From IMG/VR virus record IMGVR_UViG_3300020182_000166, positions 1 through 25,746 of that record: DNA of 25,746 bases, one strand, 5' to 3'. Of this stretch, positions 17,771 through 24,870 are shown in pieces; the stretch's first letter is position 1; each line of letters starts with the position of its first letter. The notes beneath the pieces are model-generated. The model saw only the letters and a list, made by a program, of their open reading frames with translations, searched no databases and had not been told where the DNA came from. A program made the translations under genes and the position numbers. This DNA is from a virus.

Positions 17771-18700
17771 ATGAGCAAGGGAGCCATAAAAATGACAAAT
17801 GAAAAAACCTCAGCATATCAAAAGGTTACAGATAACATTGTATCAATTCTTGAAGAAGACAAGCTTCCACCCTGGAATAAAGAATGGACAGGAGAGCCGT
17901 TGTCTTTGCCGTATAACTCAGTAACTAGACATGAATACCAGGGCATTAATATCTGGAACCTGTTATTAACTGGCTGGGCAAAAAACTATGACTCGAATCA
18001 GTGGGCTACTTACAAGCAGTGGAATATTGCTGGCGGCAAAGTAAAGAAAGGAGAGCGCAGCACAACAGGCATTTTCTTTAAACCTATTGTTAGAACCGAT
18101 GACAGTGGAGAGGAACACATTGTTAAATTTGTTAAAGCCTTTTCCTTATTTAACAGAAACCAGGTTGAAATTGATAACGAGCTAGTAAATCCATCCCATG
18201 AAAAGCTACCCATTGATGACGTTTACTTAACCGGGAGTGCCGCAGAGATGGCCTCAAGCTTAGGCGTAAAGATTGTTCCTGGATCGCCAGCTTACAGCCC
18301 CTCGATGGACAAGATACATATGCCAGAAATTGATTCATTCACTACGGCAGAAGCTTATTTTGCAACGATGGCGCATGAATGCAGTCACGCTACCGGCCAC
18401 AACACACGACTTAAGAGAGACCTTACCAAACGCTTTGGCAGTAACGAGTATGCGATGGAGGAATTGATAGCAGAGCTAAGTGCTGCGTACCTATGCAGCA
18501 AGTACAACGTAGGGTATGCAATCGAGCAGCATGCTAGTTATCTAAAGTCCTGGATCAAGGTCTTGAAAGAAGATAATAAAGCTATCTTCCACGTAGCTGC
18601 TGCTTCACAGCGCGCCGCAGACTACGTCCAAGATAGCGTTAGTTCTATGCGCTTGGAAGTTGAACAGGAATCAGAGCTAGGTCAGTTGATGGGGGCATAA
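17771..18700 (+). CDS. ardC: ArdC-type antirestriction protein
   Basis: A 309-aa protein with the ArdC layout: an N-terminal ssDNA-binding domain (SAYQKVTDNIVSILEEDKLP, WNKEWTG, Y.G.N.W.L, YKQWNIAGGKVKKGERSTTG) and a C-terminal zincin metallopeptidase-like domain with HECSH (His202, Glu203, His206) and a downstream EELIAE (230-235) likely to supply the third ligand. Plasmid ArdC protects incoming DNA from type I/II restriction. As the first early gene it would act just after injection, and the genome also encodes a methyltransferase. Two starts are possible: ATG 17771 (GGGAG, 7 nt) or the in-frame ATG eight codons in, which also has an AAGGGAG. Confidence 0.85.
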   Translation: MSKGAIKMTNEKTSAYQKVTDNIVSILEEDKLPPWNKEWTGEPLSLPYNSVTRHEYQGINIWNLLLTGWAKNYDSNQWATYKQWNIAGGKVKKGERSTTGIFFKPIVRTDDSGEEHIVKFVKAFSLFNRNQVEIDNELVNPSHEKLPIDDVYLTGSAAEMASSLGVKIVPGSPAYSPSMDKIHMPEIDSFTTAEAYFATMAHECSHATGHNTRLKRDLTKRFGSNEYAMEELIAELSAAYLCSKYNVGYAIEQHASYLKSWIKVLKEDNKAIFHVAAASQRAADYVQDSVSSMRLEVEQESELGQLMGA

Positions 18701-23492: not shown

Positions 23493-23683
23493 ATGAGATA
23501 CATGTAGGTTTATTAGGATTAGGTTTTTTATTACTAGGTTTAGCATTTGCTGGGAATGAGGGCTATGACCAGGAGGTAAATCTTCTCGCTAACTACTGCG
23601 AGATGGTGCAGATTGGGATTGACAGCAATGGCGAGAACGGCTGGCCTGATTATAAAGGCATCTACTCTGAGATTTGCCAGTAA
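23489..23683 (+). CDS. Small membrane protein with conserved Cys/Trp tail (64 aa)
   Basis: One hydrophobic segment (GLLGLGFLLLGLAFAG, residues 7-22) is followed by a polar domain with two Cys (NYCEMVQIGIDS...WPDYKGIYSEICQ). The motif CEMV...WPDYKG.Y.E.C is seen in short phage and prophage proteins of unknown role. The segment could be a signal peptide or an anchor, placing the Cys pair outside the cytoplasm where a disulfide could form. ATGA overlap with the previous gene and TAATG junction with the methyltransferase gene. Confidence 0.65.
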   Translation: MNEIHVGLLGLGFLLLGLAFAGNEGYDQEVNLLANYCEMVQIGIDSNGENGWPDYKGIYSEICQ

Positions 23684-24870
23684 TGGCGGCTTACTATAAT
23701 GAGTTTGACCCTTTTGCTGCCGCTTGGCTCAAGGAGTTAATCAAGGACGGCTTAATAGCCGATGGCATTGTTGACGAGAGGAGTATTGCAGATGTCCAGC
23801 CAGAAGACCTTAGAGGATTCACGCAGTGTCACTTCTTCGCAGGGATTGGTGGATGGAGCGCAGCAGCCAGACTTGCTGGATGGGATGATGACCGACCAAT
23901 GTGGACAGGAAGCCCACCCTGCCAGCCATTCAGTACAGCCGGGAACAGGAAAGGAAAAGACGATCTCCTCCGACATCTCTGGCCGGTGTTCTTTAATCTC
24001 ATCCGCGAGTGCCGCCCTCCAGTTGTCTTTGGAGAACAGGTTGCGTCAGCAATTAGAATGGGGTGGTTCGACGATCTACAAAAAGATTTGGAAGCAGAAG
24101 GTTACGCCAGCGCAATGGTCGTACTCCCAGCTTGCAGCGTCGGTGCCCCGCACAAAAGAGATCGACTCTTCTATGTCGCAGAAGGGGTGGGCAACGCCGA
24201 ACACAATGGATCATATGGCTCTGAGGTCGGACGAGGCTTTGCTTCGGCAAGAAACGACGATCAGGAAAGGCCGAACGTTTCCAAACAATTTGAGGGAGCA
24301 AGTAGACCCAAGATCACAGGAAATATACGCAACGGGGAAGATACCAGCGGCATGGCCGACGCCCAGTGCGACCTGTCGAGAGACATCGCTAGAGACAATG
24401 AAGAAGCGCAAAGAATTCAGGAAGCGCAATGCCAATCAGAACACGGTTCCGATGTACCTGCCAGATGCGGTCCAGGTGATGCACAGCAAGGAATATGCGG
24501 AAGCGATGGGCTACAAGGACGAAGAAAGAGCAGCATGGCCGACACCAACAACAAGGGATTACAAGGATACGGGCGATCTGAGCAAGTCGATGATCCGCAA
24601 AGACGGAAAGAGTCGGTGCGATTCAGTGCCGAGAGTAGCAAGCACTATCGGTGCGGCTCGGATGATAACTTCTGGGCAGGAAGCGAACACATATATTGCC
24701 GAGATGGGAAAGAGCGTCAAATACCAGTTGAACCCGCGCTTTTCCCTTTGGCTCATGGGATACCCAATCGAGTGGGCACACTGCGCGGAGCGGGTAACGC
24801 CATTGTCCCGCAAGTCTCGGCAGAAGTGATTGGTGCTTATATGAGCGTGGAGCAGTGCAATGACAATTGA
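23683..24870 (+). CDS. DNA cytosine-5 methyltransferase, Dcm type (395 aa)
   Basis: C5-methyltransferase motifs in order: I HFFAGIGGWSAA (50-61), IV GSPPCQPFS with catalytic Cys80, VI VVFGEQVAS with Glu118 (the usual N of ENV replaced by Q), VIII PHKRDRLFYV, and X GAGNAIVPQVSAEVIGAYM near the end. The middle (about 170-340), where the target-recognition domain lies, is unusually Gly/Asp/Arg/Gln-rich and carries three short VGNA/MADA/MADT segments. The ATG at 23683 shares a base with the previous stop; a TTG upstream adds three residues. It probably modifies phage DNA against restriction. Nearly the whole gene is also open in the +1 frame (see 23792-24829). The region is GC-richer than its neighbours. 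Confidence 0.88.
   Translation: MAAYYNEFDPFAAAWLKELIKDGLIADGIVDERSIADVQPEDLRGFTQCHFFAGIGGWSAAARLAGWDDDRPMWTGSPPCQPFSTAGNRKGKDDLLRHLWPVFFNLIRECRPPVVFGEQVASAIRMGWFDDLQKDLEAEGYASAMVVLPACSVGAPHKRDRLFYVAEGVGNAEHNGSYGSEVGRGFASARNDDQERPNVSKQFEGASRPKITGNIRNGEDTSGMADAQCDLSRDIARDNEEAQRIQEAQCQSEHGSDVPARCGPGDAQQGICGSDGLQGRRKSSMADTNNKGLQGYGRSEQVDDPQRRKESVRFSAESSKHYRCGSDDNFWAGSEHIYCRDGKERQIPVEPALFPLAHGIPNRVGTLRGAGNAIVPQVSAEVIGAYMSVEQCNDN
23792..24829 (+). CDS. Overprinted WPTP-repeat protein inside the methyltransferase gene (345 aa)
   Basis: A 345-codon frame, +1 to the methyltransferase, starting MSSQKTLEDSRS from an ATG with GAGGAG 8 nt upstream. It reads as a known protein type often annotated hypothetical in phages: HPASHSVQPGTGKEKT, then LQLSLENRLRQQLEWGGSTI, YKKIWKQKVTP, VPRTKE, three W-(A/P)-T-P motifs (GWATPNTM, AWPTPSATC, AWPTPTTRDYKD) and a conserved end LNPRFSLWLMGYPIEWAHC plus TPLSRKSRQK. 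The W-T-P codons coincide with the VGNA/MADA/MADT codons of the methyltransferase. Whether it is translated is unproven, but start, ribosome site, length and motifs all support it. A role tied to DNA modification is inference. Confidence 0.55.
   Translation: MSSQKTLEDSRSVTSSQGLVDGAQQPDLLDGMMTDQCGQEAHPASHSVQPGTGKEKTISSDISGRCSLISSASAALQLSLENRLRQQLEWGGSTIYKKIWKQKVTPAQWSYSQLAASVPRTKEIDSSMSQKGWATPNTMDHMALRSDEALLRQETTIRKGRTFPNNLREQVDPRSQEIYATGKIPAAWPTPSATCRETSLETMKKRKEFRKRNANQNTVPMYLPDAVQVMHSKEYAEAMGYKDEERAAWPTPTTRDYKDTGDLSKSMIRKDGKSRCDSVPRVASTIGAARMITSGQEANTYIAEMGKSVKYQLNPRFSLWLMGYPIEWAHCAERVTPLSRKSRQK

Follow-up and report, generated by a model that had tools for sequence, protein, structure and literature searches.

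One C5-cytosine DNA methyltransferase probably split between two overlapping reading frames in a virus genome fragment

The analysis of a 25,746-base virus record, probably a fragment and hereafter called the window, meaning the whole stretch of DNA analysed, indicated with a probability of about 0.86 that a locus at its right end encodes one C5-cytosine DNA methyltransferase split in two chains by reading frame. One chain, alpha, is read in frame 0 from 23683 to 24870, and the other, beta, is read in the +1 frame inside alpha, all features of this locus lying on the + strand. It was observed that the methyltransferase motifs are divided between the two frames and that beta is homologous to the part of unsplit and tandem enzymes that comprises the target-recognition domain (TRD) and motif IX. 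The gene order in this part of the window was found to be a primase/helicase gene, a NinB-like gene, the C5-cytosine methyltransferase gene and a NinG-like gene.

The alpha frame starts at ATG 23683, which overlaps the stop codon of the preceding gene (TAATG), TTG 23674 being an alternative start. Its assignment to a C5-cytosine DNA methyltransferase came from Pfam PF00145 (DNA_methylase, E 2.3e-18, 67.1 bits against a curated cut-off of 22), from phrog_363 (label DNA methyltransferase, E 6.8e-80) and from an AF2 model, whose nearest PDB folds were M.HhaI and M.HaeIII. The motifs IV, VI, VIII and X that a preliminary description of this DNA had recognised were all found in this frame, in addition to motif I, and the residues named in brackets were invariant among 76 homologues: motif I, FFAGIGGW, at 23833-23856 (F54, F55, G57, G59, W61); motif IV, GSPPCQPFS, at 23908-23934 (P82, C83, Q84, S87), with the catalytic Cys83 at 23920-23922; motif VI, FGEQV, at 24028-24042 (G120, E121, Q122, V123), which aligned to M.HhaI MENV and thus takes the position of its ENV; motif VIII, GAPHKRDRLF, at 24142-24171 (R162, R164); and motif X, AGNAIVPQVSAE (AGNAIVPQV), at 24790-24825 (G374, N375). 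In the AF2 model, residues 1-170 mostly presented high pLDDT and the C-terminal helix of motif X was confident (pLDDT >90), residues 178-331 being mostly disordered or not confident. The linker between motifs VIII and X (24211-24663), which runs in frame 0 across the putative TRD of beta, displayed pLDDT values mostly <50 and, over residues 201-300 of beta, an NN/SN ratio of 0.85, the neutral value of the estimator. Nothing similar to motif IX was found in alpha between motifs VIII and X, this motif being present in the +1 frame only. The presence of motif X in alpha and the restriction of motif IX to the +1 frame indicate that alpha represents a subunit of the enzyme and not the whole monomer.

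The beta frame, also called the WPTP protein, extends from ATG 23792 to the stop at 24829 (345 aa), and an upstream ATG at 23762 would give 355 aa. The previous claim of a +1 frame open for 345 codons, whose ATG has GAGGAG at 8 nt, was confirmed, the Shine-Dalgarno sequence being AGGAG at 23779-23783, 8 nt before ATG 23792. It falls within Arg36-Ser37 of alpha (AGG AGT), in the conserved DERSI.DV, and it was verified that Arg36 was encoded by AGA or AGG in 74 of 118 loci versus 989 of 3509 elsewhere in alpha, an odds ratio of 4.3, for which the p-value is optimistic because the loci are related. A nearby +1 start with a Shine-Dalgarno-like word was observed in 86 of the 118 loci.

Searches with beta revealed a match to phrog_1008 ('DNA methyltransferase', E 2e-26) over residues 12-342, and neither a Pfam match nor a PDB sequence match. 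A helix and a hairpin (24002-24142; residues 81-127 counted from 23762; pLDDT ~77-91; NN/NS 0.36) lie over alpha motifs VI-VIII. They are followed by three W-x-T-P modules, namely WATP at 24188-24199 and WPTP at 24536-24547, both recognised by sequence, and between them WPTP at 24353-24364, in which W198, T200 and P201 were nearly invariant among 76 homologues. Motif IX, LNPRFSLWLMGYPIEW (LNPRF..WLMGYP.EW), at 24728-24775, was likewise nearly invariant among the 76 homologues (pLDDT ~80); it was assigned by order and pattern, the Pfam support being weak, as found for gp50 of Streptomyces phage Samy, a separate-gene partner in which motifs IX-X were weakly matched (E 0.2, profile 270-322). A PDB sequence search with this same protein returned nothing useful. 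When beta was modelled alone, AF2 gave a poor fold (pLDDT 55), confident only at the helix-hairpin and around motif IX, and no PDB fold match was obtained with this model, which was too poor for a fold search. The single-chain models fit a split enzyme, since beta would be expected to fold poorly if it needs alpha; the pLDDT of 55 and the lack of Pfam and PDB matches nonetheless count against this reading.

Among the dual loci, beta contained from 0 to 6 [WL]xTP modules (2, 22, 46, 36, 25, 11 and 4 loci, respectively), and this variation might tune specificity. A nested pair at L110:496-1366 harbored a beta whose only TP module is short and whose motif IX (FFAQLMGFPQNW) is divergent, which indicates that the target-recognition part can shrink strongly.

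The overlap proved to be widespread and more than a product of chance, the pair being present in almost all the relatives recovered. A viral contig collection was scanned with alpha, beta and a relative, and bacterial genomes were scanned separately; the alpha/beta pair in the +1 register was found at 198 loci in all material fetched from the viral contig scans, and the nested +1 arrangement in 79 of 80 bacterial-genome loci. Synonymous shuffling of alpha in the window produced a mean of 6.1 stops in the +1 frame, which was open in none of 300 shuffles, within limits defined by the beta ORF, so that the observed stops were zero by construction. To avoid this circularity, the test was redone with boundaries defined only by alpha, in 41 loci recruited by alpha alone. 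The +1 frame was fully open in 34 of them, against 1.9 expected after alpha-preserving synonymous shuffling, and presented 13 stops where 127 were expected, while the +2 frame contained 464 stops, a number in line with the 413 expected. Thus, the breaking of the +1 frame by stops in relatives, envisaged in the preliminary description, was not what was found.

A beta profile trained on half of the loci scored 315 bits on held-out real DNA versus 119 bits on alpha-preserving shuffles, and the real DNA scored above every shuffle in 34 of 34 loci. The reverse test for alpha gave 372 versus 81 bits, so that beta holds information not dictated by alpha, and vice versa. Dual coding is real and not due to chance, as had been proposed together with the existence of a conserved second family. 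It could be argued that codon bias and the conservation of alpha are enough to keep the +1 frame open, given that ~119 of the 315 bits survive codon shuffling of alpha and that part of the likeness to beta is, therefore, inherited from alpha. However, this explanation is refuted by the stop avoidance, the profile score and the dN/dS, all of which exceed the alpha-preserving nulls, and by the occurrence of beta homologues without any overlapping alpha frame.

The selection on each frame was quantified with 21 independent pairs, 75-97% identical, in which each difference was classed by its effect in both frames. The overall ratios were 0.33 for alpha (NN/SN) and 0.33 for beta (NN/NS), versus ~1.6 when +2 was taken as the second gene. 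In simulations on the same sequences, the estimator gave ~0.81-0.89 under neutrality and recovered the imposed constraint, and a simulated constraint of 0.3 in both frames reproduced the value of the +2 control. Both frames are under purifying selection, and the test of dN/dS per frame, suggested beforehand, thereby showed that beta (~0.33) is not a by-product of codon bias.

Along the overlap, in the beta numbering of the window, the ratios of beta and alpha were, respectively, 0.47 and 0.08 at residues 1-45; 0.97 and 0.08 at residues 46-80, where no constraint on beta was seen, which also counts against the split reading; 0.36 (0.27-0.47) and 0.24 at residues 81-130; 0.12 and 0.22 at residues 131-200; 0.24 and 0.85 at residues 201-300, the alpha value being indistinguishable from neutral; and 0.30 and 0.45 at residues 301-345, the motif IX segment. 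Hence, only beta is constrained over residues 201-300, in accordance with the early suspicion that the middle of the locus is constrained mainly by the overprinted frame, whereas alpha dominates over the catalytic motifs, where beta is still constrained. The counts of G or C at third codon positions agree with this pattern but constitute weaker evidence: they amounted to 170 of 344 codons in alpha and 216 of 344 in beta over the whole overlap, and the stretch of 40 codons for which 29 of 40 (beta) and 13 of 40 (alpha) had been counted by hand was reproduced as 28 of 39 and 13 of 40.

The register between the two frames was also examined at the W-x-T-P modules. As first noticed in the preliminary description, the WATP, WPTP and WPTP sites lie exactly on VGNA, MADA and MADT of alpha, the modules starting at 24188, 24353 and 24536, one base after the alpha tetrapeptides. 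Tryptophan has a single codon, TGG, and a W-x-T-P module read one base earlier gives NTG followed by codons that open with the third bases of beta codons. Among 401 WxTP sites, the alpha tetrapeptide was mostly [VLM]-[AG]-[DNHY]-[STAP], which is the set possible if W, P/A, T and P of beta are fixed and only the wobble bases of beta are free. Since the variation of alpha at these sites corresponds to the wobble positions of beta, VGNA, MADA and MADT are a shadow of the W-x-T-P module and need no function in alpha.

Homologues of beta were also found outside the overlap, in actinophages, by means of a profile built from nested loci only, for which shuffled-protein controls reached <=3.7 bits. 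In Mycobacterium phage prophi104-2, gp17 is a single chain that comprises motifs I-VIII, three LLPTP..SD modules, LAAPFSEWMQGWPLGWVT and IIGNGVVPQQA (motif X), and its residues 226-382 were matched by the nested-beta profile with an E value of 9.5e-10. Gordonia phage Upyo (gp54/gp53) and Streptomyces phage Samy (49/50) harbor adjacent non-overlapping genes split after motif VIII, and the genes of Mycobacterium phage Jarcob (69/70) overlap by 17 bp; the profile matched the tandem partners Upyo gp53 (5.7e-12), Samy gp50 (8.4e-12), which is annotated as related to phrog_1008, and Jarcob gp70 (1.9e-11). No significant match to this profile was obtained for Papez gp46 and GordDuk1 gp29, which are too short in that region. 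The latter (Gordonia phage GordDuk1, L201:1985-2194, 69 aa) seems to be a minimal form of beta that contains hardly more than motifs IX and X, and it is located downstream of gp28, which carries motifs I-VIII.

Whether in adjacent genes or in one chain, the parts of the actinophage enzymes were arranged in the order I-VIII, (LLPTP..SD)n, IX and X, with motif IX directly before motif X in the monomer and tandem forms, and in the viral locus L073 alpha ends after motif VIII and motif X is placed at the end of beta. These comparisons identify the WPTP protein as the enzyme region between motifs VIII and X, which includes the putative target-recognition part and motif IX. What had been described as a WPTP protein overprinted on a Dcm methyltransferase thus matches a methyltransferase family itself (phrog_1008) and corresponds to the missing TRD/motif IX part of this enzyme, rather than to a separate phage protein. 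The two families had also been thought to be locked together, which holds in the nested lineages but not in actinophages, where adjacent genes or one chain are found. In trees of the alpha core, the actinophage tandem and one-chain forms clustered together, with nested forms on either side of them.

The occurrence of the W-x-T-P and motif IX part in genes that do not overlap, as well as within a single chain, sets beta apart from de novo overprinted genes, in the sense of genes with no homologue outside the overlap. On the other hand, the N-terminal 130 residues of beta are absent from the tandem partners and, among the forms observed, were restricted to the overlapping ones, so this part could, judging from the sequence comparison, qualify as de novo overprinted. 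That a segment of beta is special to the nested forms, and that overprinted phage genes often encode accessory proteins, might suggest that beta is a translated accessory protein with another job, such as a regulator, an inhibitor or an anti-restriction factor, acting outside the catalytic complex. This explanation is very unlikely, as alpha is devoid of motif IX, which beta presents at the right place, and as the beta region sits between motifs VIII and X of a single-chain methyltransferase.

M.EcoHK31I and M.EaeI are known heterodimeric C5-methyltransferases (YGGCCR). In 1995, Lee et al. reportedly described the beta gene of M.EcoHK31I as being also inside alpha, in another frame. The two chains of M.EcoHK31I carry motifs I-VIII and X on the larger one and only motif IX on the smaller one, and its TRD was predicted in the larger chain (PMC3404938). 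In the window, alpha carries motifs I-VIII and X, and beta, nested in the other frame, carries motif IX; this same anatomy indicates the same kind of system. No entry named M.EcoHK31I was found in phage records or E. coli genomes. In M.AquI, the small chain carries motif X as well as motif IX (PMC3404938). The window locus resembles it in the natural split within the variable region and differs from it in that motif X stays on alpha, whereas motif X is on the small chain in L073, Upyo gp54/gp53 and Samy 49/50, which resemble M.AquI on this point.

The window locus differs from M.EcoHK31I in the most likely position of the TRD. Considering the neutral middle of alpha, the disordered alpha linker and the one-chain relatives, the W-x-T-P region of beta is probably the target-recognition domain. 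The placement published for M.EcoHK31I counts against this conclusion and favors instead a split enzyme with the TRD in the middle of alpha, in which beta would supply only motif IX; moreover, TRDs are variable, so that weak conservation of the alpha middle is not decisive alone. Even so, the TRD is unlikely to lie in alpha, which is neutral precisely over the beta residues 201-300 that are strongly constrained in the other frame and mostly disordered at its residues 178-331, and the region between motifs VIII and IX of the one-chain and tandem enzymes corresponds to the PTP region of beta.

Translation, assembly, target recognition by beta, DNA methylation and a role against restriction are what we infer for the split enzyme. 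Alpha would be translated from ATG 23683 in frame 0 into an AdoMet-binding/catalytic core (I-VIII), an unstructured open linker and a motif X that folds back on the core. Beta would be started at its own Shine-Dalgarno sequence and ATG 23792 inside alpha, and would be composed of an N-terminal helix-hairpin, probably in contact with alpha, the W-x-T-P region acting as TRD, and motif IX. Both chains would assemble into an active methyltransferase, with beta supplying the target-recognition cleft, and the assembled enzyme would most likely mark the phage DNA against host restriction. A broader picture, possible but with the odds somewhat against it, would be that the catalytic and DNA-reading halves share one kilobase, that each chain gained a segment through the domain of the other, that the helix-hairpin of beta is a new overprinted and selected interface unit, and that the 0 to 6 W-x-T-P modules make up a modular TRD.

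A predicted anti-restriction protein was also found in the window (17771-18700; phrog_7245, E 2.7e-67), corresponding to a second likely counter-restriction function in the same fragment, and none of the window proteins scanned was recognised as a restriction endonuclease. The window contained 37 GGCC sites versus ~52 expected from base composition, which says nothing firm on specificity.

Some loci displayed unusual layouts. L127:3000-4057 and L139:3000-4058 are near-identical loci in which alpha and beta exchange reading frames around a run of G, probably by a one-base assembly error, and the resulting fusion of alpha to beta in L139 offers a picture of what a single-chain form would be. In L137:2994-4610, the alpha ORF continues in frame through the WPTP module and motif IX, with motif X in a third frame, which is either a natural frame swap or an error. 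These ORFs of L139 and L137, passing from alpha into beta in one frame, would be in line with a programmed frameshifting that joins both frames into one long chain instead of two proteins. This mechanism is highly improbable, since one shift would omit motif X and two shifts would be required, since beta has its own start and Shine-Dalgarno sequence, backed by codon bias, and since the difference between L127 and L139 is likely an assembly error. In L058:1283-3374, the N-terminal and C-terminal halves of alpha are separated by a long stretch that includes a second sequence resembling motif VIII (GSPHIRQRLWWVAE), as though a portion of the gene had been duplicated or inserted. In the E. coli EC20 prophage (L286:2363-3532), the annotation divides the relative into two pieces, each given as an incomplete methyltransferase pseudogene.

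Among the top matches in phage records, there was usually one annotated feature under the match. The same nested pair is present in phage K1ind2 (gp32/gp33) and Paenibacillus phage Arcticfreeze (gp56/gp57), with both ORFs annotated as DNA methyltransferase, in records that give no account of the nested arrangement. No account of this alpha/beta arrangement in phages came up in the literature searches. An additional ORF hidden out of frame within a phage DNA methylase was described for the ShiLan domain of actinophage methylases (PMC11855218); unlike beta, that ORF encodes a homing endonuclease of the HNH type, which was inserted there and is not part of the methyltransferase. Split enzymes of this kind are already known, and what is new here is their breadth in phages and prophages, the quantified dual selection and the evidence for the TRD in beta.

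These findings reveal a little-noticed arrangement, widespread in phages and prophages, that constitutes a long same-strand overlap in which a function can be named and selection measured in both frames, the products being probably subunits of one enzyme. They also account for the phage proteins of the W-x-T-P family (phrog_1008) and make the position of the TRD in such split enzymes directly testable. Finally, many methyltransferase annotations in phages and prophages omit the subunit that probably sets specificity and, with beta left out, an annotated alpha expressed alone may be inactive.
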